A DNA stretch of 64,000 nt from a bacterium (GTDB lineage Bacteria; CAIWAD01), in the NCBI GenBank assembly GCA_030429345.1, contig JAUIFJ010000012.1, positions 68,512 to 132,511 on the forward strand. The letters run 5' to 3'. The position numbers and the translations under genes were made by a program. The notes under the pieces were generated by a model that was not told the origin of the DNA, made no database searches, and saw only the letters and a list, made by a program, of their open reading frames with translations. Positions 8,737 through 25,022 of the stretch are shown in pieces (the stretch's first letter is position 1; the number at the start of each line of letters is the position of its first letter).

Positions 8737-9987
8737 TCAGGTCGTATACTCGGAATTGATCTCCACGTAGCGGCGGCTCAGGTCGGTGGTCGCCATCCAG
8801 GCATTGCCCGGACCCTTCCCCAGGCGCAGGCGGATCTCCACCTGTTCTGCCGCGAAAGTCTGCGACAGGGACTTCGTGTCGACTGCCTGCGGGGCACCTC
8901 GGGTGTATACCGTGTGATCCCCCAGCTCCAGATGCAGCGAGTCCTCTTGCAGCGCGACGCCGGCATTGGCCGCCGCGGCCAGAATGCGCCCCCAGTTGGG
9001 ATCGCCTCCGGCCAAAGCCGTCTTCACGAGGCTGGAGGTGGCAATCGCCAGCGCCACCTGCCGCGCTTCCGCATGGCTTTCCGCCCCTTCGACGGCGATC
9101 CGCGCCATGCGCGCGGCCCCTTCCCCGTCCCGGACGATCTGCAGGGCCAGCTCGCGGGCCACCCGCCGCAGCCCCCGGGCGAAGAGCGCCTCGCGCGCCC
9201 CTTCGGGCCGCAGGGCGGGCATGGCGGCTCCTCCGGCGAGGAGCAGCACGCTATCATTGGTGCTGGTGTCCCCGTCCACGGTGATACAATGAAAGGAGCG
9301 GTCCACCGCCGCTCCCAGCAGCGCGTCCGCCCTCCCCTCCGCCAGCACGGCCTCGCTGCCGATGACGGCCAGCATGGTTCCCATGCGGGGGTGGATCATA
9401 CCCGAGCCTTTGGCCGCGCCGCCGATGGTCACACGCCTGGCGGGATCGCCGTCTTCCTCCGGCAGCTCCAGTTCCAGGGCGCACTGCTTGGTGCAGGTAT
9501 CCGTGGTCAGCATGGCCGCGGGCACCTCCCGCAGGGCCTCGGAACCCAGGCGGCCCTTCAACCGGTCGAGCCCCGCCTCGACCTTGCCGATCGGCAGGGG
9601 CACGCCGATCACGCCCGTGCTCAAGACGAGCGCCGGCCCGCCGAAATGTGCTTCGCTGCGTGTCCGCATGCGCTCGGCGTGTTCCAGCCCCTTCCTGCCG
9701 GTCAGCGCGTTGGCGTTTCCGCTGTTGATCACGACACAGGAGGCCCTGGCCGAGTCGGCGAGCATGCGGCGGCAGAGCTGCACCGGCGCGGCCGGCAAGC
9801 GGTTGAGCGTGAAGCGGCCGGCTGCCTGCAGCGGTTCTTCCGCCGCGATCACGGCCAGGTCCGGATTTCCGCTGTCCTTGAGTCCGACCCCAAGCGCGCC
9901 TCCGCGCATCCCGGGCACCGAATGCAAGCCGCCCCCATCGAGAAAGCGGCCCTCGCCGGGCTCAGGCGCTGCAGGTGAGAGAGCCAC
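8737..9987 (-). CDS. argJ: Bifunctional glutamate N-acetyltransferase / amino-acid acetyltransferase ArgJ
   Basis: A 416-aa ArgJ. It transfers the acetyl group of N-acetylornithine to glutamate and so recycles acetyl groups in arginine synthesis; many members can also use acetyl-CoA. Visible hallmarks are NSGNANALTG, LVLSTGVIGVPLP, MLTTDTCTK, AKGSGMIHPRMGTMLAVI with the autoprocessing Thr in GTML, DTSTNDSVLLLAGG, and the family end EINSEYTT. The start is a GTG with AAAGGAG upstream; it lies 26 bp inside the end of the acetyltransferase gene, so translation is coupled. It is the last gene of the arg operon. Confidence 0.93.
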   Translation of the reverse strand: MALSPAAPEPGEGRFLDGGGLHSVPGMRGGALGVGLKDSGNPDLAVIAAEEPLQAAGRFTLNRLPAAPVQLCRRMLADSARASCVVINSGNANALTGRKGLEHAERMRTRSEAHFGGPALVLSTGVIGVPLPIGKVEAGLDRLKGRLGSEALREVPAAMLTTDTCTKQCALELELPEEDGDPARRVTIGGAAKGSGMIHPRMGTMLAVIGSEAVLAEGRADALLGAAVDRSFHCITVDGDTSTNDSVLLLAGGAAMPALRPEGAREALFARGLRRVARELALQIVRDGEGAARMARIAVEGAESHAEARQVALAIATSSLVKTALAGGDPNWGRILAAAANAGVALQEDSLHLELGDHTVYTRGAPQAVDTKSLSQTFAAEQVEIRLRLGKGPGNAWMATTDLSRRYVEINSEYTT

Positions 9988-10450
9988 GCCTCTGCTCCTT
10001 TCCGCTGAAATGGACCCGTCGCCGCATCACATGGCGCCGGGCGCTGAGCGGCAGCTCCTTCCTGGCATCCTTTTCCGGAAGCCGGGAATCCTCCGCCCTT
10101 TCGAATCCCTGCAGCTGGAAGAAGGCCGGAGTCGTTGTCACACATAGCAATTCGCGTCCGCGCCTCTGCGCCTCGATACAGGCTGCGCGCACGACCCTTG
10201 CCCCCAGGCCATCCCCCTGCCACTCCGGATCAACGGCCACGCTGCGCAGCTCCAGATCCCCTTCCGGCAGGGATTCCAGGCTGGCGGCGGCTCGCGGACT
10301 GCCCGGCGGGCCAATGACGAACCAGTTTCCGATGCCGTCGGCAACCTCCTTCGCCGTGACCGGCAGGCAGCGTGGCACACAGCGTCCGACCAGGCGCGCA
10401 ATGGCACCCGCCTCGGCCGGAAGCGCCTGACGGGGAATTCGCGGATTCAT
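9962..10450 (-). CDS. GNAT acetyltransferase in the arg operon (candidate short N-acetylglutamate synthase)
   Basis: A 162-aa GNAT-fold protein. The acetyl-CoA loop SVAVDPEWQGDGLGARVV lies at residues 70-87 (QGDGLG at 78-83), followed by LLCVTTTPAFFQLQGFERAE, which is the strand-helix end typical of the family. The C-terminal RLPEKDARKEL resembles short-form N-acetylglutamate synthases. Its ATG overlaps the argD stop by 4 bp and its end overlaps argJ by 26 bp, so it is an integral operon member. Acetylation of glutamate as the entry step of arginine synthesis is the most economical role; ArgJ could overlap with it. Function is inferred from context. Confidence 0.7.
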   Translation of the reverse strand: MNPRIPRQALPAEAGAIARLVGRCVPRCLPVTAKEVADGIGNWFVIGPPGSPRAAASLESLPEGDLELRSVAVDPEWQGDGLGARVVRAACIEAQRRGRELLCVTTTPAFFQLQGFERAEDSRLPEKDARKELPLSARRHVMRRRVHFSGKEQRRGSLTCSA

Positions 10451-11643
10451 GCGAGCTTCTCCAGGGTCTTGGCGAGGCGCCGTGCTCCTTCGTCCAGCTC
10501 CTCGTCGGTGATACATAGCGGCGGGTAGAGACGGACCACCGGATCCTCGCTGGGGATCACCAGCAGTCCTTCCTCCAGGGCGGCCTTCATCACGGCGGCA
10601 GCGGATGCGCCCCGCACCTCCAGGCCCAGCATCAGGCCGCGGCCGCGCAGGCCGACGGCAGGCCCCTCCGCCGACAACAGGGGCTCCAGTGCCTTGCGCA
10701 GGCGCTTCCCGGCTCGCTCCACATGCGCCAGGGCCTCCGGCGAGGACAGTTCGTCGAAGACCGCTGCTGCCACATGGGTTACGAAGGGGCCGCCTCCGAA
10801 GGTGCTGCCGTGCATGCCGGGACGCAGCCGGGCGGCAAGGGCCCCGCTCATCAGCACGGCTCCGATCGGGAGGCCGCCGGCCAGGGGCTTGGCGAGCGTC
10901 ATCATGTCCGGCCGCAGGCCCGCGTGCTCGTGCGCCCAGAGCGTGCCGCTGCGCGACAGGCCGCTCTGGATCTCGTCGACGCAGAACAGGGTTCCTGTCT
11001 CACGACAGCGCTCCTCGAGACGTCGGAGCCAGGCCGCATCCGCCTCGCGCACTCCGCGTTCCCCCTGGATCGGTTCGACGATCGCCAGGGCCGTGTCCCT
11101 GCCGATCTCCTCCAGGGCGGCGGCATCGTTGAAAGGCAGGCGCTTGTAGCCGGCGGGCAGGGGTTCGAAGGGACGACGATAGTCCGGCCGGTCCGTGGCC
11201 GCCAGCGCGCCCATGCTGCGCCCGTGAAAGGAACCGCTGAAGTAGACGATCTCGCGTGCGTCCCCGCCGGCGACCCGGGCGAACTTGATCGCCGCCTCGA
11301 CAGCCTCCGTGCCCGAGTTGCAGAAGAAGGCCCGGTCGGCGAACGAGCGCTCGCAAAGGCTTTCCGCCAGGCGAACCTGGGGCTCGCTGTGCAACAGGTT
11401 GGAGACATGCAGCGGCAGCTCCGCCGCTTCGCGAAGCGCGCGCAGCACCGCAGGGTGTCCGTGCCCCAGCGAACTCACGGCGATGCCGCAGGAGAAATCA
11501 AGGACATCCCTTCCCCCGCTGTCGAAGAGGCGCGCGCCCTCGCCCTTCGCGAAGAGTGCATCCGCCCGCGCGTAGGTCGGGGCCAGCACGTGCTCCGCGC
11601 GTGCCACAAGCTCATTGTCGAGATGTGTCGCATCGCCATTCAT
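10447..11643 (-). CDS. argD: Acetylornithine aminotransferase
   Basis: A 398-aa class-III PLP aminotransferase. It converts N-acetylglutamate semialdehyde to N-acetylornithine. Motifs in order are VLDFSCGIAVSSLGHGHP, FFCNSGTEAVEAAIKFAR, YFSGSFHGRSMGAL, FCVDEIQSGLSRSG and the PLP-lysine region MTLAKPLAGGLPIGA, then HGSTFGGGPF. I chose the ATG at 11643, which overlaps the argB stop by 4 bp; a GTG two codons upstream is possible. It is the third gene of the operon. Confidence 0.92.
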   Translation of the reverse strand: MNGDATHLDNELVARAEHVLAPTYARADALFAKGEGARLFDSGGRDVLDFSCGIAVSSLGHGHPAVLRALREAAELPLHVSNLLHSEPQVRLAESLCERSFADRAFFCNSGTEAVEAAIKFARVAGGDAREIVYFSGSFHGRSMGALAATDRPDYRRPFEPLPAGYKRLPFNDAAALEEIGRDTALAIVEPIQGERGVREADAAWLRRLEERCRETGTLFCVDEIQSGLSRSGTLWAHEHAGLRPDMMTLAKPLAGGLPIGAVLMSGALAARLRPGMHGSTFGGGPFVTHVAAAVFDELSSPEALAHVERAGKRLRKALEPLLSAEGPAVGLRGRGLMLGLEVRGASAAAVMKAALEEGLLVIPSEDPVVRLYPPLCITDEELDEGARRLAKTLEKLA

Positions 11644-12410
11644 ATGCACACCGCCGTTCCGCCGAAGGCGCGCATGGCCGCCAGGTCACCGATGCGCACG
11701 CGGCTCACGCCGGCGCGGATCGCTTCCGCGGCCGCGCGGATCTTGGGCCGCATGCCCCCGTGAATCACGCGCTTCTCGATCAGTCGCCGCGCCTCCGAAA
11801 GGCGCAGGAGCGGCAGCACCTCGCCCTGCTCGTCCTTGACTCCGGGGATGTCGGACACGAAGGCCAGTTCCTCGGCGGCCAGCGAGACGGCCAGGGCGTG
11901 GGCGGCGTCGTCGGCATTGACATTGACCATGCCGCCGTCCTCCGCCAGCGCCACGGGCGCGATCACCGGCATGCGCCCGGCCTGCAGCTGCTCGCGGACC
12001 AGGTCCGGCCGCACGCATGGCGGCAGGCCCACGCGGCCCAGGCGATCCTCGTCCCGCAGCGCGGAGCGCAGCACTCCGCCATCCACTCCCGAGAAGCCGA
12101 CGGCAGGCAGGCCCTGCGCCAGGCAGGCCGCCGTGAGACGCTTGTTGACCAGGCCGCAGAGGGCCATCAGCACCACTTCCAGGTCCTTCTCCTCCGTCAC
12201 ACGCAGGCCCTCGACGCGCCGGGGCTCCATTCCCAGGACGCCCTGCAGCCGGTCGATGTCCGGCCCGCCGCCGTGTACGACAACGGCCCGGCGTCCCTTG
12301 CGGCGCAGCGCCTTGAGGTAGCCGCAGAAGGCCTTCAGGTCCTTGTCGGCGACCAGGTTCGCTCCGCCGACCTTGACCAGGGTCACCGTGTCGGATGTGT
12401 GGTTCTTCAT
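11640..12410 (-). CDS. argB: Acetylglutamate kinase
   Basis: A 256-aa amino-acid kinase family protein that phosphorylates N-acetylglutamate. The N-terminal VTLVKVGGANL and AVVVHGGGPDIDRL motifs form the phosphate-binding site; VNVNADDAAHALA and VSDIPGVK with IHGGMRPKIRAA complete the nucleotide and substrate site. It lacks the long N-terminal extension typical of arginine-inhibited hexameric enzymes, so direct feedback control is doubtful (inference). It follows argC by 30 bp. Confidence 0.93.
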   Translation of the reverse strand: MKNHTSDTVTLVKVGGANLVADKDLKAFCGYLKALRRKGRRAVVVHGGGPDIDRLQGVLGMEPRRVEGLRVTEEKDLEVVLMALCGLVNKRLTAACLAQGLPAVGFSGVDGGVLRSALRDEDRLGRVGLPPCVRPDLVREQLQAGRMPVIAPVALAEDGGMVNVNADDAAHALAVSLAAEELAFVSDIPGVKDEQGEVLPLLRLSEARRLIEKRVIHGGMRPKIRAAAEAIRAGVSRVRIGDLAAMRAFGGTAVCI

Positions 12411-12440: not shown

Positions 12441-13487
12441 TCAAAGGCGCAGCCCGAGAGTCTCGGGCCAGCCCTGCATCACGTTCATGTTCTGCACTGC
12501 CGCTCCGGCAGCGCCCTTTCCCAGGTTGTCGATGGCGCAGCTCACCAGCAGCCAGCCGGTCGCCTCGTCGTGCGTCAGGCTGATCACCGCCTTGTCGCGT
12601 CGCGCCACACAGCGTATGCGGCTCTCCTTTCCGGGGGGCAGCACTTCGACCAGCTTCTCCTGCGCGAAGTGCCGTCGGTAGAGCCGCTGAGCGCCTTCCC
12701 CGTCGAGTCCGCTGTCCTGCACCAGGCAGTTGGCCAGGATCCCCCGTTCGAGCGGCACCAGCTGCGGCACGAAGAAGAGAGGCGGGCATTCGCCGCCCTC
12801 CCCGTGATCCAGGGCCGCCTGCGCCAGGACCTGCTCCATCTCCGGCACATGGCGGTGTGCCCGCCCGGGCTTGTAGGGCCGCACATCGTCGTGCGCCGAG
12901 CAGAAATGGGTCAGCGGAGTGGCGGCCCGCCCCGCTCCGCTCAGGCCGGATTTCGCATCCACGTAGACGGGGTTGCGCAGCAGGCCGCTCCGGGCCAGGG
13001 GCAGGAGGGCCAGTTCCACGGAGGTGGCGTAGCATCCCGGATTGGCCACGAAGCGGGAAGCGCGCAGTTTCCGGCGATTGCTCTCCGGCAGTCCGTAAAC
13101 GGCCTTTTCGGCGAGGGCCTGGTTGCGCTGGGATCCGTATACACGCTGGTGAAGGGATTCCGCGCGCAGGCGATGGTCCCCTGAAAGGTCGATCAGCGCG
13201 CAGCCGCGGGCATGCAGCTTTTCAGCCGTCTCCGCCGAGCGCCCGTGGGGCAGGCACAGAAAGGCCAGGTCGATCTCTTCTTCCAGGGCCTGCTCCGGAA
13301 GAAGCAGGGACAGGTCGGGAGCGGCGGGGTCCACATCCGGCAATCGGATGTCCTTCGCTTCTCGAGTGCTGCCGAAGAGCAGCTCGACGCCCGGATGCGC
13401 CTGCAGGCGCTCCGCCAGTTCGATGCCAGTGGTTCCGGTTACGCCGAAGATCCCGGCCCGCAGGGAGGGGGTGGTTGCAGCCTGCAC
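12441..13487 (-). CDS. argC: N-acetyl-gamma-glutamyl-phosphate reductase
   Basis: A 348-aa NADPH-dependent reductase, second step after the kinase. The NADP motif GVTGTTG is at residues 15-21, the catalytic cysteine is in FVANPGCYATSVELALLPL, and SGLSGAGR and the histidine region HRHVPEMEQ follow. The start is a GTG (complement of 13485-13487) with AAGGAAG upstream. A longer reading from 13604 is rejected because it would start upstream of the sigma-54 promoter at 13531-13548. It is the first gene of argC-argB-argD-GNAT-argJ. Confidence 0.92.
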   Translation of the reverse strand: MQAATTPSLRAGIFGVTGTTGIELAERLQAHPGVELLFGSTREAKDIRLPDVDPAAPDLSLLLPEQALEEEIDLAFLCLPHGRSAETAEKLHARGCALIDLSGDHRLRAESLHQRVYGSQRNQALAEKAVYGLPESNRRKLRASRFVANPGCYATSVELALLPLARSGLLRNPVYVDAKSGLSGAGRAATPLTHFCSAHDDVRPYKPGRAHRHVPEMEQVLAQAALDHGEGGECPPLFFVPQLVPLERGILANCLVQDSGLDGEGAQRLYRRHFAQEKLVEVLPPGKESRIRCVARRDKAVISLTHDEATGWLLVSCAIDNLGKGAAGAAVQNMNVMQGWPETLGLRL

Positions 13488-13530
13488 GCGGCTTCCTTGT
13501 TTTTCCTGGACGATGCTTTCGCAGTCCAAC

Positions 13531-13548
13531 TGGCAGGAAGCGTGCCAG
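13531..13548 (-). promoter_or_regulatory. Sigma-54 (-24/-12) promoter of the arg operon
   Basis: On the minus strand the sequence reads CTGGCACGCTTCCTGCCA. It matches TGGCACGN4TTGC at 10 of 11 defined positions, with the invariant GG (13546-13545) and GC (13534-13533) exactly 10 bases apart. The expected start site is about 12 bp further on, giving a leader of about 34 nt before the argC GTG. The divergent neighbour is a sigma-54 enhancer-binding protein, which supports the call strongly. Confidence 0.85.
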
Positions 13549-13587
13549 ATTGTATCTCTTTTCAAATCATGAGCTTGTATTTTGACC

Positions 13588-13640
13588 TTGACATTATCGG
13601 ACAACTATGGCCTATTTGATGGGACAATGAAGACACATTG
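13588..13640. promoter_or_regulatory. Candidate enhancer / operator region between argC and its regulator
   Basis: This stretch lies 40-110 bp upstream of the sigma-54 promoter, where activator sites normally lie. It holds an exact inverted repeat CAATG-N6-CATTG (13625-13640) and an imperfect one, TTGAC-N7-GACAA (13588-13604). The same TTGACA at 13588-13593 could be a -35 element of the divergent regulator, but no good -10 follows at 17 bp. Assignment as activator sites is inference. Confidence 0.35.
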
Positions 13641-13658: not shown

Positions 13659-15083
13659 ATGTCCGAAACCCGCAAACAATTGTTGCTCCTGGGGGCTCGA
13701 CCACTGCAGGAGCGCCTCGAATCCTGGGGCTATTCGACCCTGCACTATGCCGGCACGAAAGAGCTGCTGGCCGAAGCGCCCGAGGTCGGCGCCCGCGCCT
13801 GCATCGCTTCGCTGGAGCTGGTACCGGCAGAGGAACTGCCGCAGTTCATCCGCCGACTGCGCTCCGTGATTCCCTTCATGGACGTGGTCGGCTGGGCGCC
13901 CGGGGCGACACCGGAAAAGGTCCGCAGCGCCTTGCAGGCGGGCTTGAAGGACATTGTGCTACACGTGGATTCGCAGGATCTGCGCGAGCGGCTGCAGCGC
14001 GTGATCGCCCGGCAGCAGTTCCTGCCCCGCCTGCTGGAGCACCGCGGCCGCGCGGAAACCTGGCGCTTCGAGGGACTGCTCAGCCGGGACAGCGCCATGC
14101 ACAGCATCTTCGATACAGTCGTGCGCACGGCTCCCACGGACGCCACGGTGCTCGTGATGGGCGAGACGGGAACGGGCAAGGAGCTCCTGGCGCGCGCGTT
14201 TCACAATCGTTCGGAAAGGGAGGGGCCGATGGTGGCGCTCAACTGCGCCGCCGTGCCGGAGAACCTGATCGATTCGGAACTCTTCGGCAACGAGAAGGGT
14301 GCCTTCACCGGCGCCACCAGTCCGCGGGACGGGCTCTTTCGCCACGCCGAAGGCGGCACGCTGCTGCTGGATGAGATCGGCAGCATTCCCGAACCTGTGC
14401 AGAACCGCCTGCTCCGCGTGCTGCAGGAGGGCGCGGTGCGTCCGGTAGGCGGACAACGGGAGGTGCCGGTGGATGTGCGCATCATTGCCGCCACCAGCCA
14501 GCACCTGGACACCCTCGTCGGCGAAGGCCGCTTCCGCGAGGACCTGCTCTACCGGCTGGATGTGATACGCATCCAGATTCCGCCATTGCGCGAACGGCCC
14601 ATGGACGTGATCTACCTTTTCAGCGTCTTCATGAGCAACCTCTCGTCGAGCTACAAGCTGCAGAGGCACGAGGTCTCCGACAGCTTTCTCGACGCCCTGC
14701 AGACCTACGACTGGCCGGGAAACGTGCGCCAGCTGGAGAACTTCGCCGAGCGCGTGCTGTTGACCGTGCCCTCCTCCGAGCGCCTGAAGGCCGAGCACTT
14801 CCGCAAATACGTCATGCCGATGAGCGAACACGAAAACGCGACGGATTCCGCGCCGCGCACTCCCGCCAGCAATTTCCCGCAGCCGGATCCGAAGCTTCCG
14901 CTTCCCCGGGCCCTGCAGATGGCCCAGGCGTCGCTGGAGAAGTCCTTTCTGCACCAGGCGCTCAAGGCCAACCGCGGCGCTATCGGCGAAAGCGCGCTCC
15001 AGCTCGGCATCAGCCGTCGCACGCTGCAACGCAAGATGCAGCGCTACGGCCTGCAGCGGCAGGCCTATCGCCCGGACCGTTGA
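13659..15083 (+). CDS. Sigma-54-dependent transcriptional activator (NtrC type) with degenerate receiver
   Basis: A 474-aa enhancer-binding protein. Residues about 1-125 have the alternating pattern of a receiver domain (ALQAGLKDIVLHVDSQDL resembles its last helix), but the acidic pocket and phospho-acceptor Asp are missing (RACIASLELVP at that strand), so it is not expected to be phosphorylated. The AAA+ domain is complete: Walker A GETGTGKE at 168-175, GAFTGA at 214-219 for sigma-54 contact, LLLDEIGSIP, and an arginine finger region. A Fis-type helix-turn-helix ends the protein (ESALQLGISRRTLQRKMQRYGL). It is divergent from the arg operon and is the obvious activator of it. The ATG at 13659 was preferred to TTG at 13638. 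Confidence 0.9.
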   Translation: MSETRKQLLLLGARPLQERLESWGYSTLHYAGTKELLAEAPEVGARACIASLELVPAEELPQFIRRLRSVIPFMDVVGWAPGATPEKVRSALQAGLKDIVLHVDSQDLRERLQRVIARQQFLPRLLEHRGRAETWRFEGLLSRDSAMHSIFDTVVRTAPTDATVLVMGETGTGKELLARAFHNRSEREGPMVALNCAAVPENLIDSELFGNEKGAFTGATSPRDGLFRHAEGGTLLLDEIGSIPEPVQNRLLRVLQEGAVRPVGGQREVPVDVRIIAATSQHLDTLVGEGRFREDLLYRLDVIRIQIPPLRERPMDVIYLFSVFMSNLSSSYKLQRHEVSDSFLDALQTYDWPGNVRQLENFAERVLLTVPSSERLKAEHFRKYVMPMSEHENATDSAPRTPASNFPQPDPKLPLPRALQMAQASLEKSFLHQALKANRGAIGESALQLGISRRTLQRKMQRYGLQRQAYRPDR

Positions 15084-15168
15084 GCCAGGCCCTTATCGCC
15101 GAGCGGCCTTCCCGGGGTCCGGGACCGGCCCTTCGTGATACACGATCCCCTTCAGGATAACACCGCTC

Positions 15169-15198: not shown

Positions 15199-15357
15199 GC
15201 CTCGCGCACGCAGGGTCTCCGGGAACACGCTTTCCTTGTGTATCACATCATGAATATCCGGATCCTGCGGAACACGGCACGCACGCCCGCGGTACAAGCG
15301 CGGGCCGGCCCGATGCACGGCCGAACACTGCATCACGGAACCTGAAAGGAGCACGGA

Positions 15358-16578
15358 ATGCCTTCCCCACGACGCCGCAAGATCGCCCTGCTGGGCTACA
15401 TGATCGAGGCCATGGAAGCCGCCCGCAGCCTGCAGTACGACTTTGTCTGTGTCGTGCCGCCCGAATTCGTCGCCTCCCTGGAGGCCGACGGCGTTCCGGC
15501 CGTCGGCTGGGACTTCGGCAGGATCAACGAACAGTCCACCGACCTGGCCCGCCAACTGCGGGAAGCCGAGGTCAGCCTGGCGATCCCCTTCTACGAGGAG
15601 ACCGTCGAATGGGCCGGCGCGCTCAACGCCCAGTTCCTCGAGGATCCGCGCATCTTCAACCGCTCCCTGCTCTTCCGCGACAAGGCGATGATGAAACGCA
15701 AGGCGCAGATGAGCGGCATTCGCGTCGGGGTCTTCGAGGAAGTCGACAGCGCCTCCGACGCGCTCACCTTCTTCCGCCGCGTCAACAAGGCCCTCGTCAA
15801 GGGGCCGGAGGAGGATCCGGAACCGGTGCACCTGAAGCCGATCAGCGCGGCGGGCAGCGTGGGCCACTTCATGGTGAGACAGGAAGAGGATCTGGACGAG
15901 CTGCCGGCCGAGGTCTTCCCCTGCCTGGCGGAAAGCCACCTGGCGGGGCAGGAGTTCTCCTGCGAGGTATTCATCCAGGACGGCGTGATCCGCTTCCTGA
16001 ACATCAACGAATACATCCACCTGGGCTACAGCCAGCTGCTGCCGCCGACTCCGGCCCTGGAGCGGCACCGGCCCAGGATCCGCCAGGAGATCGAGAAGCT
16101 GATCCGCGCATTCGGCTTCCGCAACGGGGTCCTGCACCCCGAGTATTTTCTGGACGAGAACGAGGAGCTCAACTTCGGCGAGGTGGCCAATCGCGTGCCG
16201 GGCGGACACATTTTCGAACTGATCCAGCGCGCCTACGGATTCGATCCCTTCGCCGGCCTGATCCTCTGCAGCGATCCGGACACGACGGACGAGGAACTGG
16301 CCGCCTTCTTCCCCGACGAACGCGAAGGCAAACGTGGTCACGCGGGGAACGTGCTGATCTACCCCCGCCGCAAGGAGATCCACGAACTGCGGATACCGGA
16401 CGAGCTGGAGGCCGAGGACTACTACCACAGCCACGATCTCTTCGAACCGGTCAACTCGAAAGTGGCCGAAAGAGCGGGCTTCGGCAACCACTACGGCAAG
16501 GTCGACTTCTTCGGCGAGGATCCGGATCGCCTGCGCGAGGTGCTACAGCGCTTCGAATCCCTGGAGTACTACATCTAG
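15358..16578 (+). CDS. ATP-grasp family ligase, first gene of a three-gene cluster
   Basis: A 406-aa protein with the ATP-grasp architecture: an N-terminal Rossmann-like part (KIALLGYMIEAMEAA), a central lysine-containing lid region (VHLKPISAAGSVGHFMV), and a C-terminal magnesium site (GVLHPEYFLDENEELNFGEV, then ANRVPGG). These enzymes join a carboxylate to an amine through an acyl-phosphate. It has GAAAGGAG before the ATG. The next gene begins 29 bp downstream and alanine racemase follows, so a D-amino-acid or peptide-like substrate is plausible. The actual substrate is not known. Confidence 0.8.
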   Translation: MPSPRRRKIALLGYMIEAMEAARSLQYDFVCVVPPEFVASLEADGVPAVGWDFGRINEQSTDLARQLREAEVSLAIPFYEETVEWAGALNAQFLEDPRIFNRSLLFRDKAMMKRKAQMSGIRVGVFEEVDSASDALTFFRRVNKALVKGPEEDPEPVHLKPISAAGSVGHFMVRQEEDLDELPAEVFPCLAESHLAGQEFSCEVFIQDGVIRFLNINEYIHLGYSQLLPPTPALERHRPRIRQEIEKLIRAFGFRNGVLHPEYFLDENEELNFGEVANRVPGGHIFELIQRAYGFDPFAGLILCSDPDTTDEELAAFFPDEREGKRGHAGNVLIYPRRKEIHELRIPDELEAEDYYHSHDLFEPVNSKVAERAGFGNHYGKVDFFGEDPDRLREVLQRFESLEYYI

Positions 16579-16607
16579 CCGCTTCGGCCTTGTACGACAG
16601 GAATCGA

Positions 16608-18605
16608 ATGGCAAACACCGCGACACGGGAGGTCCCAGTGCAGGAGGAAATCCGCAAACGCAGCCGCCGCTTCGAAGAGGCGTTGGCCGAACTCGAAGCG
16701 GCGCCGCCCTTTGCCAAGGCGCGCTACCAGACCGCTGTCTTCCGTCGCTCGACGGACCTGCTCGACGCGAGGGAAGGCATTCCGCTCGTCTACGAATACG
16801 CCGGCCGCTTCGACGCGGCGGGCGTGTTCCACGGCGGCCCCTGGGAAGCCCCGGCGAAACTGCTGCCCCAGCTGGTCGGAGTGGGCCTGCTGGGCGACGG
16901 CGTATACCCCAGCGTGGAGGCGCTCAGCGAACTGCGGGTGCTGGCCATCGCCGAAGGAAAGGCCGAAGGCCGGGATTTCAGCGCCGACGAGGCGGCCGAG
17001 TTCCTGCGGGAGGTCGTGGCCAAGCACCTGCACCTGCTCTACCCCGGGGAAACCGAGGACCGCCGCTCGCGGCCCCGCATCTACTTCCGCGCCGAGAGCC
17101 TCCTGCGCTTCATTGCCGACCACATCGGCCTGGAAGGCCTGCGCGAGCAGGTCATCGAGGAGATCGAACTGCTCTGCGTGCAACGCCCGATCGCCACGGA
17201 CCGCATCCGCGGCCTGCTCGAGATGGCGAGGCGCATCGAGCCGGGGAAGGAAAGCGACGAGGCGCAACGCACGCTGGATCTGTATACGCAGGCGGTCGGA
17301 GCGCCGACAGCGGGCAGCCGGGCGACCGCGGAGCCCGGCTCCTACCGCGACTGGATCCGGGAAGCCGGGCCCGCCGCCCTCGGGGAGGAGGCGCGCTCCT
17401 TCGCCGAGTCCCTTTGTCGCACAGGACTTGGCAGCCCCTTCCATCCGGTCCTGCTGCGTTTCCTGCAGAAGAACGACCCTTCGGGCCTGCCGGGCGCGCT
17501 GGGGCTGAGTGAAACCGGCTCGGCGGAACTGTTCCGCAACGCGGAACTGGCGGGACAGCTGCTGCGGGCGTCGCTCTTTCCGGCGACGGCCGACGCGCTG
17601 ACCGGCTTCCGGGGCATGCTCGAGCGCGGACTGCTCTCGCGGCGCGAGGTGGCGGGCGGACTGCGCCGGCTGCTGGACCTGGACATTCTTCCATCGGTCC
17701 GCGAGATGCTGCTGGACTCCCAGGCGGACACGGGCGGCCTCTCCCCGAACAACCTGCTGCTGGCGGCGGCGATCCGCGTGCTCGGCCAGCCCCTGGGCGT
17801 GGGACAGGGGAACAACCCCACCTGCCAGGCGGCGCGGGGCATCAGCCTGTGGAGCCTGCACGCTCCCGGCCTCCTGCTCGGCATGGCGGCCAACGCCGCC
17901 CGGGACGGCACCGTTGAATGCCGTTTCGAGGGGCAGGTGCTGAGCTCCGGGCAGATCGTATACGAAGGCAGCTACGACACGCGTTCGCTTTCGGTCGATC
18001 CCCTTTCGAGCCTGCTGGTGCCGCACCTGGATCGCCTCTACTTCCGCATGCAGCAGCTGGCCGCCTACCGGGGGGAGGACCCGCACCGCTGGATCAATCC
18101 GGCCCTGTATGGGCGCTGGGTGCCGACCCAGTTCGAGTCCGTCCTGGATCCGGCCAGCGGCGCTGTCCGCGACCATGGCGGATTCGTCCGCCGCTTCTTT
18201 GCGACACACCACCCCGACTACAATGAGGGCCATGAGCTGCTCTACCCCAATCCGGTGGGCCTGATGGTAACCAATGTACACGGCCGGCTGCTGGGCCCCC
18301 ACGCGGTCTCGATCCAGCGCATCCGCAGGGACCCGGACGGCGCATTGAGGATCTACTTCTTCAATCCGAACACCGAGGGCCGACAGGACTGGGGCATGCA
18401 GGTTCGTCCGAGTGTCCGCGGGCACGGCGAGGCGCACGGCGAGTCCTCCCTGCCCTTCGGGAGTTTCGTCTCACGGATGTATGCCTTCCACTACGATCCC
18501 TACGAGATGGGCGAGGTCTACGCCGTCCCTTCCCCCACCGTGGAGGAAGTCGGCCGCATGGCGCGCGAGAGCTGGGCGCGCGAAATGCCCTGGCTGGACT
18601 CCTGA
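16608..18605 (+). CDS. Unrecognised 665-aa protein with a Cys-His-Asn set (candidate cysteine peptidase / acyltransferase)
   Basis: I do not recognise a named family. The N-terminal 380 residues are mostly helical and charged. The C-terminal part has a compact set of conserved-looking motifs: GQGNNPTCQAARGISLWS with Cys406, VTNVHGRLLGPHAVSIQRI with His565 and IYFFNPNTEGRQDWG with Asn586. The Cys-His-Asn order and the FNPN turn after a beta strand resemble papain-like or transglutaminase-like folds (inference). No signal peptide or membrane segment is visible, so it is probably cytoplasmic. It sits 29 bp after the ATP-grasp gene and its TGA overlaps the start of alanine racemase by one base, which implies joint expression. 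Confidence 0.6.
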   Translation: MANTATREVPVQEEIRKRSRRFEEALAELEAAPPFAKARYQTAVFRRSTDLLDAREGIPLVYEYAGRFDAAGVFHGGPWEAPAKLLPQLVGVGLLGDGVYPSVEALSELRVLAIAEGKAEGRDFSADEAAEFLREVVAKHLHLLYPGETEDRRSRPRIYFRAESLLRFIADHIGLEGLREQVIEEIELLCVQRPIATDRIRGLLEMARRIEPGKESDEAQRTLDLYTQAVGAPTAGSRATAEPGSYRDWIREAGPAALGEEARSFAESLCRTGLGSPFHPVLLRFLQKNDPSGLPGALGLSETGSAELFRNAELAGQLLRASLFPATADALTGFRGMLERGLLSRREVAGGLRRLLDLDILPSVREMLLDSQADTGGLSPNNLLLAAAIRVLGQPLGVGQGNNPTCQAARGISLWSLHAPGLLLGMAANAARDGTVECRFEGQVLSSGQIVYEGSYDTRSLSVDPLSSLLVPHLDRLYFRMQQLAAYRGEDPHRWINPALYGRWVPTQFESVLDPASGAVRDHGGFVRRFFATHHPDYNEGHELLYPNPVGLMVTNVHGRLLGPHAVSIQRIRRDPDGALRIYFFNPNTEGRQDWGMQVRPSVRGHGEAHGESSLPFGSFVSRMYAFHYDPYEMGEVYAVPSPTVEEVGRMARESWAREMPWLDS

Positions 18606-19780
18606 TGGAACACGGACAGCGCGCCGTGCGCCACTCCTCGCGCATCGAGCTCAGTCTCGGGGCGCTGAGGCAGAACCTGGGTTTCACGCGCGAGCTCATC
18701 GGCCGGCAGGCGCGCATCTCGCTGGTCGTCAAGGCCAATGCCTACGGACACGGCTATGCGGCCATCGTCAAGATGGCGGAACGCTGCGGCATCCGGCACT
18801 TCTCGGTGGCCTCCTCGCAGGAGGCCGAGGAGGTGCTGGCGGCCGTGCGCGAGGACTCGCGCGTGATGATCATGGGCATTCTCTACGACGAGGACCTGCC
18901 CTGGATCATCGAGCACGACATCGAGTTCTTCGTCTACGATCTCGAACGGCTGAAACACGCCGCCGGGATCGCCGGCAGCATCGGCCGGCCGGCGCTCGTG
19001 CACCTGGAACTGGAGACCGGCGGCAACCGGACAGGCCTGGCCGCCGCCGAGCTGCCGGAGGCCCTGCGCCTGCTCACGCGCAACCGGCGGCAACTGCAAC
19101 TGGCGGGAGTCTGCACCCACCTGGCCGGCGCGGAAAGCCTGGCCAACCGCTTCCGCATCACGCAGCAGCTGCAGCTCTTCCAGCAGCTGCGCAGGAGGAT
19201 CGCGCGGGCGCGCAGCCTTGAACCCGCGTATCACATTGCCAGTTCGGCGGCGACGGTCGCCCTGCCGGAAAGCCGGCTGGACATGGTGCGGGTCGGCAGC
19301 CTGGCCTACGGCCTCTGGCCCAGTCCGGACGTGCGCGACCTCTACCTGATGCATCACAAACCCGCCAGGAGCAATCCGTTGAAGCGGGTCTTCAGCTGGA
19401 AGACCGACATCATGCAGGTCAAGTCGGTATCCCGGGGGGAATTCGTCGGCTACGGGACCTCCTTCCAGGCCCATCGCGACAGCCGGATCGCCGTCCTGCC
19501 CATCGGCTACGGCAACGGCCTGCCCCGCGAACTTTCCAACCGCGGCACCGTGCTGATCCGCGGCCGCCGTGCGCCCATCGTGGGCAGCATCAACATGAAC
19601 CTCTTCTTCGCGGATGTGACCACCATCCCCGAGGCGCAGGTCGGCGACGAGACCGTTCTCGTCGGCAGGCAGCGGAACAACGAGATCGGCCTGCGCTCCT
19701 TCACCGAGTTCAGCTCCGCGCTGAACACGGAGTTCGTCTGCCGGCTCCCCGCGGGCATCCCCCGCACCATCATCCGCTGA
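18605..19780 (+). CDS. Alanine racemase (cluster-encoded)
   Basis: A 391-aa fold-type III PLP enzyme. The PLP lysine is Lys43 in LVVKANAYGHGYA; HIASSAATVALPESRLDMVRVGSLAYGLWP and the catalytic tyrosine Tyr283 in FVGYGTSFQA are present, as is IGYGNGLPRELSNRG and the SINMN motif. All residues expected for alanine racemase activity can be seen. The gene is translationally linked to the Cys-His protein, so it may feed D-alanine (or another D-amino acid) to the ATP-grasp enzyme rather than, or in addition to, cell-wall synthesis. Because it may be a dedicated copy I do not assign alr. Confidence 0.88.
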   Translation: MEHGQRAVRHSSRIELSLGALRQNLGFTRELIGRQARISLVVKANAYGHGYAAIVKMAERCGIRHFSVASSQEAEEVLAAVREDSRVMIMGILYDEDLPWIIEHDIEFFVYDLERLKHAAGIAGSIGRPALVHLELETGGNRTGLAAAELPEALRLLTRNRRQLQLAGVCTHLAGAESLANRFRITQQLQLFQQLRRRIARARSLEPAYHIASSAATVALPESRLDMVRVGSLAYGLWPSPDVRDLYLMHHKPARSNPLKRVFSWKTDIMQVKSVSRGEFVGYGTSFQAHRDSRIAVLPIGYGNGLPRELSNRGTVLIRGRRAPIVGSINMNLFFADVTTIPEAQVGDETVLVGRQRNNEIGLRSFTEFSSALNTEFVCRLPAGIPRTIIR

Positions 19781-21349: not shown

Positions 21350-21726
21350 AAACCCCGGCTCCGCAGCATGCGGAACCGGGGGAGGCGTTTGTCGGACGGC
21401 TAGCTGGGATCGCGCGTTCCAGGCGCATCGATCACTTGACCAGCATCATCTTCCGCGCGCTGTGGCCGCTTTCCGTCTGCAGCCGGGCGATGTACAGCCC
21501 GGAGGGCCGGCCGGCCGCGTGGAAGACCGCTTCGTGCTCGCCGCCGGCCAGCATGCCGTCGATCAGCTGTGAGACAAGGCGACCCTGCAGGTCGTAGACG
21601 GCCAGGGAGACAGCGCCCGTCTCCGGCAGCGTGAAGGCCAGGGTCGTGGCGGGGTTGAAGGGATTGGGCACCGGAGCCTGCAGGGCGAAGGCCCGCGGCA
21701 GGTCGCGGGCGTCGGCCGTGGGGCTG
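21350..21726. repeat. 377-bp module, copy 1 (sorting domain plus terminator)
   Basis: Near-identical to 23390-23766 (offset exactly 2040 bp; about nine differences by eye, near 97-98 % identity). The module comprises the terminator hairpin, the short trailer and the last about 98 codons of the gene at 21432, up to the codons for SPTADARDLP. Identity stops abruptly at 21726. Confidence 0.9.
21353..21381 (-). terminator. Intrinsic terminator of the lamin-tail protein gene
   Basis: On the minus strand CCCCGGTTCCGCATGCTGCGGAGCCGGGG is followed by TTTC. It lies about 50 bp after the stop codon of the gene at 21432 and is duplicated at 23393-23421. Confidence 0.75.
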
Positions 21727-23015
21727 CTGTTGGGCGCAGCGGGCGTGCCGCCATCCACATAGCTGATCTGCCAGCTCGAGGCCAGGGCGTTGTCGAGGGC
21801 GGGATCGATCAGTTCGAGACTCGGTCCGTCGCCATCGGCCTCGCCGGGCCAGTCGCCGCCGTCGTCGTACTCGACCGCATCCACCTGGGCGCCGCCCGCC
21901 GTGTTCAGGACCAGCTCCTCGCCGCCGTTGGACAGGGCGCCGCTGTCCCACTCGTAGTCGGGCAGGAAGCCGAAGGCATTCTCGAACTCGGATTCGTCGA
22001 CTGCCAGCACCAGGAACGCGCCCGGTGCGATGGCGGCACCCGCCGGGAAGGTGAAGGTGAATCCGTCGAAGTACCATCCTTCCAGGTCGACTGTCGTGCT
22101 GCCGTTGTTGTAGAGCTCGAGGAATTCGAGCACATCCTCGCCGGCGGGATTGTACATGATCTCGTTGATCACGATGTCCAGGGTCCCGCTGAAGACCGTG
22201 TAGCTGTACCAGTCGCTGCTTGCGCTTTCCGCGTCGTCGTCTGTCGCCGTGACACGGTACTCCACGACGGATCCGGCGACCTGCCCGGGGATCACGGACT
22301 CGAAATCATCTCCGCTCATCAGGATCATCGGCTGGGACTGTAGCGGCCCGGCATCGACCGTGTACTCCAGGGTCACGCCGAAGACCATGCTTTCGTCGAC
22401 GACCGTGGCGGTCACGGTGACGGCCTCGGCGGGGTTGACCAGCTCGGGATCCTGGATCACGCTGACGATCACGGGAGGACCGCCGAGAGCCTCGAAGGCG
22501 CTGTTCTGGGCGCCGGGAGTGCCGTTGCCGCTGCTGGCGGCCCAGTTGCTGCCGTCGTTGTTGTCCAGGGCCGGGTTCTTCAGTTCCAGGCTCGGTCCGT
22601 TGCCGTCCGGGTCGCCTGTCCAATCGCCGCCGTCATCGTAGTCCACGACATCGATCACGGCGAGGCTGCCGTCGACGAGCTCGATGTCCTCGCCGCCGTT
22701 GCTCAGGGCGCCGCTGGTCCACTGCAGCACGCCCGTGAGGCCATAGGTCGACATGATGGCTGCGGCATCCACACCGATCACCAGGTAGCCGCCGGCAGGC
22801 ACGATGGTGGGATCTGGAAAGACATGGTCGACTCCCTGGGTGAAGGACCAACCACCCATGTTGACGTCGGATCCCCCGGTGTTGTAGAGCTCGATGTACT
22901 CGTTGATATCCGTTCCCGACTCGATCGGGTTGTACATGATCTCGTTGATCACGATGTCCGCCGAAGCGGCACCGGCCAGGGCGAGGCCGGCAAGACAGAT
23001 CAAGGCATTCTTCAT
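21432..23015 (-). CDS. Secreted lamin-tail-domain protein with sorting domain
   Basis: A 527-aa protein with a Sec signal peptide (MKNALICLAGLALAGAASA, cleavage before DIVINEIM). It has two lamin-tail (LTD) beta-sandwich domains, at about residues 20-160 and 275-420; each begins IVINEIMYNP and carries EYIELYN or LEFLELYN, GGWSF or GWYFD, and SGALSNGGE. Between them is an Ig-like linker (VTVTATVVDESMVFGVTLEY). The C-terminal 85 residues are a FlgD-like sorting domain (VPNPFNPATTLAFTLPETG ... RKMMLVK). Such proteins are exported and attached to the surface; LTD domains in bacteria often accompany secreted nucleases, but no enzyme domain is present here. Confidence 0.85.
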   Translation of the reverse strand: MKNALICLAGLALAGAASADIVINEIMYNPIESGTDINEYIELYNTGGSDVNMGGWSFTQGVDHVFPDPTIVPAGGYLVIGVDAAAIMSTYGLTGVLQWTSGALSNGGEDIELVDGSLAVIDVVDYDDGGDWTGDPDGNGPSLELKNPALDNNDGSNWAASSGNGTPGAQNSAFEALGGPPVIVSVIQDPELVNPAEAVTVTATVVDESMVFGVTLEYTVDAGPLQSQPMILMSGDDFESVIPGQVAGSVVEYRVTATDDDAESASSDWYSYTVFSGTLDIVINEIMYNPAGEDVLEFLELYNNGSTTVDLEGWYFDGFTFTFPAGAAIAPGAFLVLAVDESEFENAFGFLPDYEWDSGALSNGGEELVLNTAGGAQVDAVEYDDGGDWPGEADGDGPSLELIDPALDNALASSWQISYVDGGTPAAPNSSPTADARDLPRAFALQAPVPNPFNPATTLAFTLPETGAVSLAVYDLQGRLVSQLIDGMLAGGEHEAVFHAAGRPSGLYIARLQTESGHSARKMMLVK

Positions 23016-23389
23016 GGCTCTTCCTTCGGTTTTCAGGCGTTGTTGCAAACGGGTTGAATCAGGCACAGGCAGGGCCATGGCGGACCCTGCGCATCTTGTC
23101 TTGGTCGTGATTCTTTCCGCGACTAGGCGCGGCAGGGCTCGGGGCTGGATCTCGGCGGGCAAGCCGGAATCCCCCGATGGCCATCGAAACCCCCTCTCCC
23201 GGGGCAGCGACGGGCGGTCAGGCAGGGCCTTCGGCAGAGAACGGCCGCCTGACGGCCAACAGGAAGACACTCGAAGGTTAGATCGCGATAAGCATCCGGT
23301 TAGTTCCGGCCGGAACACGCTCCCCGGGCGAAGCGGGTACCCGAACGGAGAGATGGCGGAGCGCCAGTTGCCCTCCTTCGCACGACAAA
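23016..23389. other. Intergenic region upstream of the lamin-tail gene
   Basis: About 375 bp between the start of the lamin-tail gene and the terminator of the upstream gene. I see no gene, no tRNA and no riboswitch-like fold; it presumably holds the promoter of the lamin-tail gene, which I could not pick out with confidence. Confidence 0.5.
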
Positions 23390-23766
23390 AAACCCCGGCT
23401 CCGCAGCATGCGGAACCGGGGGAGGCGTTTATCGGACGGCTAGCGGGGATCGCGCGCTCCAGGCGCATCGATCACTTGACCAGCATCATCTTCCGCGCGC
23501 TGTGGCCGCTTTCGGTCTGCAGGCGGGCGATGTACAGCCCGGAGGGCCGGCCAGCCGCGTGGAAGACCGCTTCGTGCTCGCCGCCGGCCAGCATGCCGTC
23601 GATCAGCTGTGAGACAAGGCGACCCTGCAGGTCGTAGATGGCCAGGGAGACGGTGCCCGTCTCCGGCAGCGTGAAGGCCAGGGTCGTGGCGGGGTTGAAG
23701 GGATTGGGCACCGGAGCCTGCAGGGCGAAGGCCCGCGGCAGGTCGCGGGCGTCGGCCGTGGGGCTG
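23390..23766. repeat. 377-bp module, copy 2 (sorting domain plus terminator)
   Basis: Second copy of the module at 21350-21726. It supplies the C-terminal sorting domain, stop codon and terminator of the PPC-repeat gene at 23472. Upstream of the shared module the two proteins are unrelated. Confidence 0.9.
23393..23421 (-). terminator. Intrinsic terminator of the three-repeat PPC gene
   Basis: Same hairpin as at 21353-21381; here the minus-strand stem is followed by TTTTTTGTCG, which is a better uridine tract than in the other copy. Confidence 0.8.
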
Positions 23767-25022
23767 TCCAGCCGGCTCAGGCTGAAAGTGAAGGGCTGGC
23801 CGTCCCACTGGAAACCGTCGACGACCGCGTAATACATTCCGGCGGGATAGTCGCCGCTGATCGTCTCGCTGCTGCCGATCAGCCAGGGCATGGCCAGGCA
23901 GTCTGCTGGATCACAGCTGCCGAGCAGGACCAGGTCCAGCTGCTCGCTGTCGCTGGAACTCAGCTCCAGGTGCAGGGGACCACCGGGATGATCGATGGCA
24001 AAGATCACTTCCGGCGCGGTCTCGCCCGTGAAGCAGTAGCCGCTCCACAGGTTGCCGTTCTGCGAATCGGCACTGGAGCCGTTGACGGTCTCGCCCAGCG
24101 CCAGCGGCAGGGCGGAGGCGCAGGGGTCCAGGTCGCCGGGACAGGTCACATCCAGCTCGAAGGTGAAGGGGGCGCCGTTCCAGTTGTAGGCGTCGACGAC
24201 CACGTAATACGTGCCGGCCGCGTAGTTGCCCGAGATCGACTCGCTGCTGCCGACCAGCCAGGGCATGGCCAGGCAGTCCGCCGGATCACAACTGCCGAGC
24301 AGGACCAGGTCCAGCTGCTCGCTGTCTGTCGAACTCAGCTCTAGCGAAAGAAAGCCGCCCGGGTGCTCGAGGGAATAGATCACCTCGGCACCGCTCTCGC
24401 CGCTGAAGCAGTAGCTGGTCCAGGTGTTGCCGTTCTGCGAATCGGCACTGGACCCCGTCATGGTCTCGCCGCAGGTCAGCGGAATGGCGTTCTCGCAGAA
24501 GTCCTGGCTGCCCAGGCACTGCACATCCAGGGTATAGCTGAAGGGAACTCCGTCCCAGAAATAGGCGTCGACGACCACGTAGTAGGTGCCGGCAGCGTAG
24601 TCGCCGGAAATCGTCTCGAAACTGCCGACCAGCCAGGGCATGGCCAGGCAATCCGCCGGATCACAGCTGCCGAGCAGCACCAGGTCCAGCTGTGCGCTGT
24701 CCGGGCTGTCGAGGGTAATGCTGAGCAGCCCGCCGGGGTGGTCGATCACATGCAGCACCTCCGGCGCCGTTTCGCCGGAGAAGCAGTAGGCCTCCCAGAG
24801 GTTGCCGTTCTGGGAATCGGCCGAACTGCCGGTGTAGACCTCGTTGCAGGCCAGTGGAATCGCCAGGTCGCAGGCCGTCTGCTGGTCGCGGGAGCCGGAG
24901 TCCGCAATGGCGTCTCCGCTGTGGGTCTGCATCTGGCCGTTTTGCACCGGCGCCGACTGGCTGGCGGCATGCAGGGAGCTGGCCAGTAGCCCGAGACAGA
25001 GCGGAGTCAGGAAATGGGTCAT
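23472..25022 (-). CDS. Secreted protein with three PPC-like repeats and a sorting domain
   Basis: A 516-aa protein with a short signal peptide (MTHFLTPLCLGLLASSLHAA). Three repeats of about 113 aa follow, each with CxxAxPLxCxExxxGSSADSQNGN, YCFSGExxxEV, HPGGxLxLxLxS, QLDLVLLGSCDPADCLAMPWLxGSxExISGxYxAG and Y[YF]VVVDAYxWxGxPF. The four cysteines per repeat probably form disulphides. The fold is that of bacterial pre-peptidase C-terminal (PPC) domains. The C-terminus is the FlgD-like sorting domain shared with the lamin-tail protein. No catalytic domain is present, so it is probably an adhesin or structural surface protein (inference). Confidence 0.82.
   Translation of the reverse strand: MTHFLTPLCLGLLASSLHAASQSAPVQNGQMQTHSGDAIADSGSRDQQTACDLAIPLACNEVYTGSSADSQNGNLWEAYCFSGETAPEVLHVIDHPGGLLSITLDSPDSAQLDLVLLGSCDPADCLAMPWLVGSFETISGDYAAGTYYVVVDAYFWDGVPFSYTLDVQCLGSQDFCENAIPLTCGETMTGSSADSQNGNTWTSYCFSGESGAEVIYSLEHPGGFLSLELSSTDSEQLDLVLLGSCDPADCLAMPWLVGSSESISGNYAAGTYYVVVDAYNWNGAPFTFELDVTCPGDLDPCASALPLALGETVNGSSADSQNGNLWSGYCFTGETAPEVIFAIDHPGGPLHLELSSSDSEQLDLVLLGSCDPADCLAMPWLIGSSETISGDYPAGMYYAVVDGFQWDGQPFTFSLSRLDSPTADARDLPRAFALQAPVPNPFNPATTLAFTLPETGTVSLAIYDLQGRLVSQLIDGMLAGGEHEAVFHAAGRPSGLYIARLQTESGHSARKMMLVK

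Follow-up and report, generated by a model that had tools for sequence, protein, structure and literature searches.

What do three closely packed genes, for a carboxylate-amine ligase, a protein of no recognized family, and an alanine racemase-like enzyme, make together? The genes lie in a 64,000-nucleotide stretch of a bacterial contig (JAUIFJ010000012.1; the window hereafter), all on the plus strand, and encode an ATP-grasp carboxylate-amine ligase of 406 aa (P0001, 15358 to 16578), an unnamed, putative papain-like cysteine enzyme of 665 aa (P0002, 16608 to 18605), and an alr-family PLP-dependent racemase of 391 aa (P0003, 18605 to 19780). The initial annotation read them as a possible D-amino-acid conjugation system, and its coordinates, the 29-bp gap between P0001 and P0002, and the 1-bp overlap between P0002 and P0003 were all borne out in the window sequence. 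We give about an even chance to a different explanation, namely, a pathway that has not been described: the ligase would form an amide containing ornithine or a diamino acid like it, and the cysteine enzyme would then remodel or cleave this amide.

The conserved unit across phyla is the first two genes, those for the ligase and the papain-like protein. Relatives of P0002 turned up in at least 487 genomic stretches when one genome per species was scanned, and the best-scoring 80 of these, which are not an even sample, were analyzed as loci. The ligase and papain-like genes stood together in 72 loci; in 66 of these they share a strand, separated by a median of 26.5 bp. The distance matrices of the two proteins were correlated (r = 0.92; the highest value among 2000 permutations was 0.13), a value to which the common ancestry of the lineages adds. 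Of 12 carrier genomes, 11 had the ligase family, and the one that lacked it has a truncated papain-like gene; among 47 noncarriers, the family was detected in none (E 1e-30). The co-occurrence that the initial annotation had suggested checking held for this pair but not for the racemase, which follows the pair in only 36 loci, the window and 35 Bacteroidota-type loci, and is missing in most non-Bacteroidota carriers. Also to be set against our preferred explanation are the extra papain-like paralogues of Marinobacter, none of which adjoins a ligase. One such unlinked paralogue, in Marinobacter sp. CHS3-4 (L060, 5263 to 7890), has a KefC-like antiporter gene and an Asp/Glu-racemase-like gene upstream.

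The carriers among the best 80 loci include Nitrospirota, a Deltaproteobacteria-labelled genome, Neobacillus, Cytophagales, Marinobacter, Wenzhouxiangella, Salinisphaera, and Henriciella, among others, and the P0002 family was present in 11 of 398 sampled Pseudomonadota genomes and 9 of 299 sampled Bacilli genomes. A tblastn search of plasmids recovered a Halomonas copy 38% identical to P0002, which immediately follows an ATP-grasp gene whose product shares 46% identity with the window ligase. The papain-like gene of the Halomonas plasmid (L007, 11809 to 13893) switches to a different C terminus near its end, probably through a frameshift. No relatives were found in the viral_contigs and phages collections, and a viral or phage origin was set aside on that basis, as was a defense-system reading, for which there was no PADLOC match. 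We found no description of the ligase/papain-like pair in the literature, among open-licence papers.

P0001 scored above the cutoff of PF13535 (30.3 bits; cutoff, 27), and its AF2 model (pLDDT 89.8) matched the L-amino-acid ligase RizA (4wd3) in VIA-align with a Z of 33.2 (rmsd 3.6 A, 365 residues) and in Foldseek with an E of 7e-25, followed in VIA-align by BL00235 (Z 32.6) and BacD/YwfE (Z 29.9). The ATP-grasp fold of the L-amino-acid ligases covers the full length of P0001. Residues E262, E275, R279, and P281-G282 are invariant among 29 to 30 homologues and align to RizA, and the acidic metal ligands and the Arg-x-x-Gly-Gly-type motif of the L-amino-acid ligases are present. By its fold, P0001 is a putative RizA-like ATP-dependent dipeptide ligase. 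RizA makes arginyl dipeptides (PMC9321006), which speaks for the ornithine-based explanation; against this, P0001 is only 18% identical to RizA. P0001 differs from all three known ligases in its low identity to them (16 to 18%), its own invariant EETVEW motif near residue 80, its constant pairing with a papain-like protein, and its position outside phosphonate or bacilysin clusters. A glutamate at RizA position 83 was considered as a marker of a basic-substrate pocket and dropped, since RizA has a lysine there (PMC9321006). D-Ala-D-Ala-type chemistry was likewise rejected for P0001, which shows weak D-Ala-D-Ala ligase similarity (E 5e-4) but scored far below the cutoff of TIGR01205, the D-alanine--D-alanine ligase family (16.5 bits; cutoff, 245.65).

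The clearest pointer to function is the set of ornithine genes beside the pair, which the initial annotation, confined to the three genes, had missed. Across a sigma-54-type (NtrC-like) activator gene (13659 to 15083, plus strand; TIGR01818 was the best match, below its equivalog cutoff), at about 8.7 to 13.6 kb of the window, lie five genes on the minus strand. These are argC, for N-acetyl-gamma-glutamyl-phosphate reductase (12441 to 13604; TIGR01850, 296.9 bits; cutoff, 233.6); argB, for acetylglutamate kinase (11640 to 12410; TIGR00761, 210.6 bits; cutoff, 151.3); argD, for acetylornithine transaminase (10447 to 11649; NF002325, 401.3 bits; cutoff, 372); a gene for a short GNAT acetyltransferase, tentatively N-acetylglutamate-synthase-like (9962 to 10453; below equivalog cutoffs); and argJ, for ornithine acetyltransferase (8737 to 9987; TIGR00120, 344 bits; cutoff, 298), the sole argJ found in the genome. 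Together, and with the GNAT member tentative, their predicted products are a complete route from glutamate to ornithine.

Besides the window, at least four other lineages have ornithine genes next to the pair. In L009 and L127, two genomes from a different phylum, argC, argB, argD, argJ, a GNAT gene, the ligase gene, the papain-like gene, and an M20 amidohydrolase gene follow one another on one strand. Marinoscillum carries argB-argD-argC-argJ behind the racemase gene, and Cyclobacterium has a full arginine operon divergent from the ligase gene. In Neobacillus, argJ sits between two papain-like genes, joined in one genome by argC and argB, and two Neobacillus genomes have two argJ genes each, one of them inside the cassette. 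Beyond these lineages, argG lies a few genes past the cassette in Nitrospirota, and a locus of the class Bacilli (L122) has genes for ornithine transaminase and AblB beside the pair. Many loci, in Marinobacter, Algoriphagus, Marivirga, and Belliella, had no ornithine gene within about 8 kb, which counts against the ornithine-based explanation.

The intergenic region between the activator gene and the ligase gene holds a perfect 9-nt inverted repeat, GTGATACAC (15135 to 15143) and GTGTATCAC (15238 to 15246), with 94 nt between the arms, which is possibly a pair of operator sites. A sigma-54 promoter upstream of the window cassette was considered and rejected, given that the top site scored 17 of 23, the level expected by chance. 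The sigma-54-type activator cluster also adjoins the cassette in Nitrospirota and in L009 and L127. Three Nitrospirota loci (L011, L012, and L013) have a sigma-54-like site upstream of the GNAT gene, TGGAAC or TGGAAT followed by CTTGC at the same offset, which scores better than the window site. Farther along the window, at 21432 to 25022, two proteins, apparently duplicated, have almost the same C-terminal sequence, which resembles a secretion-sorting domain.

The Cyclobacterium arginine operon and the Nitrospirota argG would fit arginine metabolism equally well. We considered that the pair could store, recycle, or buffer arginine or ornithine, or could belong to an unusual arginine route that works without argG and argH. 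RizA does use arginine, and in the window genome, which is 98% complete, argG and argH were not found above cutoff while an OTC-like gene is present. However, argG and argH are ordinary in the other carriers that were tested, and three genomes of the same family, in which no cassette and no argJ were found, had no detectable argG or argH either, so that the cassette does not appear to compensate for their loss. ATP-grasp enzymes, moreover, normally activate carboxylates and not the ureido group of citrulline, and the duplicate argJ inside the Neobacillus cassette also speaks against an accessory role in arginine metabolism, which we regard as improbable. The window genome has its sole argJ here and no detected argG or argH, and the three genomes of its family lack all of these, suggesting that its ornithine feeds something besides arginine. 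The simplest inference is that ornithine serves a non-arginine purpose in this genome and that the cassette arrived with its own ornithine supply, which a missing contig could alter.

P0002 would provide the second activity of the ornithine-based pathway. It had no sequence match in Pfam, NCBIfam, PHROGs, or PDB, a profile query included, in agreement with the initial annotation, which had not recognized it. The annotation had also singled out Cys406, His565, and Asn586; these residues are at those positions, and all 59 aligned homologues keep them together with Gln400, six residues upstream of Cys406, and this invariance of all four argues that their placement is not due to chance. The six-residue spacing from Gln to Cys and the His-Ala and Asn-Pro-Asn surroundings are papain-like. 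The AF2 model, built from an alignment of the window and locus proteins with one annotated plasmid-record row left out, has a pLDDT of 90.0 and a pTM of 0.86 and divides into an all-helical N-terminal half (about residues 11 to 393) and a mixed C-terminal half whose papain-like domain (about 366 to 630) holds Q400, C406, H565, and N586. When residues 360 to 630 were compared by VIA-align, papain-like proteases occupied the top rows: calpain cores came first (calpain-3; Z 7.3, 4.2 A, 213 residues), at a Z in the range where a merely common arrangement is possible, followed by staphopains and other papain-type proteases. Foldseek against PDB gave no significant match (best E, 0.25), and the papain-fold assignment therefore rests on VIA-align and the invariant tetrad. 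The initial interpretation is supported in one part, a carboxylate-amine ligase paired with a putative papain-like cysteine enzyme, and the pair itself recurs across phyla. P0002 is like the papain/calpain-type peptidases (clan CA) in the order and spacing of Gln, Cys, His, and Asn and in the tentative structural match of this domain; it differs from them in having no sequence-level match, a metabolic operon setting, an attached helical domain, and numerous further polar residues that are invariant in both halves of the protein, outside the tetrad. These additional residues suggest that the substrate may be a specific small molecule.

The helical domain could instead bind proteins, which is an argument against a small-molecule substrate. 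We considered that the pair could carry out reversible protein tagging: the ligase would attach an amino acid (ornithine, arginine, or a D residue) to a target protein, which P0002 would recognize and deconjugate. Helical solenoids frequently bind proteins, the proteins that the C-terminal domain resembles most in structure are true proteases, and the ligase is tightly paired with the protease-like enzyme. However, P0001 is nearest to ligases of free amino acids, no recurrent small acceptor protein lies beside the pair in the examined loci, and the ornithine biosynthesis genes are linked to it repeatedly. The helical half is also rich in invariant polar residues, as a substrate pocket would be, and we consider protein tagging to be quite improbable.

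The racemase bears on the D-alanine proposal. P0003 scored above the cutoff of TIGR00492 (260.7 bits; cutoff, 168), in line with its description as a complete alanine racemase, but the alanine-specific active site is absent. It keeps the PLP lysine K43, the catalytic tyrosine Y283, and R142, of which K43 and Y283 are invariant. In the numbering of the reference Alr enzyme (in part from PMC3485190), T375 stands at the Tyr354 site, N332 replaces Asp313, and E135 replaces the carbamylated Lys129; an alignment shows Asn at the Tyr354 site in most relatives. Strict conservation of this tyrosine, which bears on specificity, is reported for alanine racemases, and the site is occupied by Thr in lysine racemase, by Ala in a broad racemase, and by Asn in the VanT serine racemase (PMC3485190). 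P0003 resembles Lyr, Bar, and VanT, members of the Alr fold family in which the gate tyrosine is replaced (PMC3485190); it differs in carrying Arg-Thr in place of the Arg-Asn of Lyr and Bar and in scoring into TIGR00492. The Thr shared with lysine racemase is consistent with a diamino acid substrate. By these residues, the pocket is predicted to be a non-alanine one, making D-alanine an unlikely product.

A second alr, which the initial annotation had asked about, does exist in the window genome: a canonical-looking gene on contig C79, 30% identical to P0003. A further alr-like paralogue, on contig C21 (L003, 1024 to 2193), is 45% identical to P0003, keeps the alanine-type tyrosine, and adjoins an apparent sensor kinase gene. 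The scheme in which D-alanine from the racemase is attached by the ligase and then transferred or removed by the cysteine enzyme draws on the tight coupling of the racemase to the pair in its 36 loci, on the TIGR00492 score, and on the weak D-Ala-D-Ala ligase similarity of P0001, but is very improbable in view of the lost tyrosine, the absence of the racemase from most non-Bacteroidota lineages, the canonical-looking alr on C79, and the D-Ala ligase scores far below cutoff.

The ornithine-based pathway would proceed as follows. The products of argJ, the GNAT gene, argD, argB, and argC would convert glutamate to ornithine. P0001 would use ATP to activate the carboxylate of one amino acid and join a second to it, one of the two being ornithine or a diamino acid like it. 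P0002 would then transfer or hydrolyze the amide through a thioester on Cys406, with Gln400 forming the oxyanion hole and His565-Asn586 acting as the base. In Bacteroidota and in the window genome, the racemase with the altered pocket would supply or interconvert a D form. The analysis shows the pairing of the two genes, their conservation, the ligase fold, the link to ornithine genes, and the non-alanine racemase pocket, and from these we infer what the enzymes act on, which way the cysteine reaction runs, and what is made.

Two known systems resemble this arrangement. Glutathionylspermidine synthetase/amidase also combines an ATP-grasp amide-forming enzyme with a papain-fold cysteine enzyme around a small diamine-containing product, and its amidase is of the CHAP type (PMC10318531). 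It is one fused protein, in contrast to the two genes and the Gln-Cys-His-Asn site of the window, and the window pair had no CHAP or GSP-synthase family match in Pfam. BtrH-type papain-fold transacylases carry out acyl transfer in ATP-grasp small-peptide clusters, sometimes with ornithine-generating genes (PMC2922099). The likeness, drawn by description, is that of a papain-like enzyme beside an ATP-grasp ligase; in contrast to those clusters, no carrier protein, cupin, oxygenase, or NRPS gene recurs at the cassette loci, and P0002 belongs to no Pfam family. By analogy, the cassette would couple the activity of an L-amino-acid ligase to that of an amidase or transacylase with a papain fold.

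What the product might do is hinted at by other neighbors. Acetyltransferases recur: AblB (beta-lysine acetyltransferase) is encoded in three Bacilli loci, a second GNAT in five loci of the same class, and a third in Nitrospirota and in L009 and L127. A DctA/GltP-type transporter gene lies beside the cassette in Nitrospirota and Neobacillus. From their sequences, we take a large protein encoded near the cassette in Halomonas-like loci to be mechanosensitive-channel-like, a small protein in L086 to be MscS-like, and proteins in L056, L065, and L133 to be histone-deacetylase-like amidohydrolases. Many carriers are marine or saline organisms, judged by their names. Known osmolytes include Nepsilon-acetyl-beta-lysine and an acetylated glutamine dipeptide (both PMC1224877), as well as acetylated lysines (PMC4685198). 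Together, the channel-like genes, the acetyltransferases, and the marine or saline carriers suggest an osmolyte, and a salt-protective solute would be the most economical guess at its role; on these neighbor genes and organism names, we hold an osmolyte product to be plausible but less likely than not.

In summary, a protein family that remains unnamed in the libraries searched, despite its presence in at least 487 genomic stretches and in about 3% each of the sampled Pseudomonadota and Bacilli genomes, is paired with a RizA-like ligase across phyla. Somewhat more broadly, and tentatively, the cassette could make a new class of metabolite: an ornithine-based small peptide, N-acetylated or D-configured in some lineages, for which dedicated genes would provide the ornithine, a ligase like RizA would form the amide, and a new transferase of papain fold, binding its substrate with the helical domain, would complete the synthesis. 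In several phyla, this peptide could serve as an osmolyte or to store nitrogen. If the ornithine-based explanation is true, these genes would expose a new amino acid pathway, would give a role to the ornithine genes in a genome apparently unable to finish arginine, and would add a new function to the papain fold.
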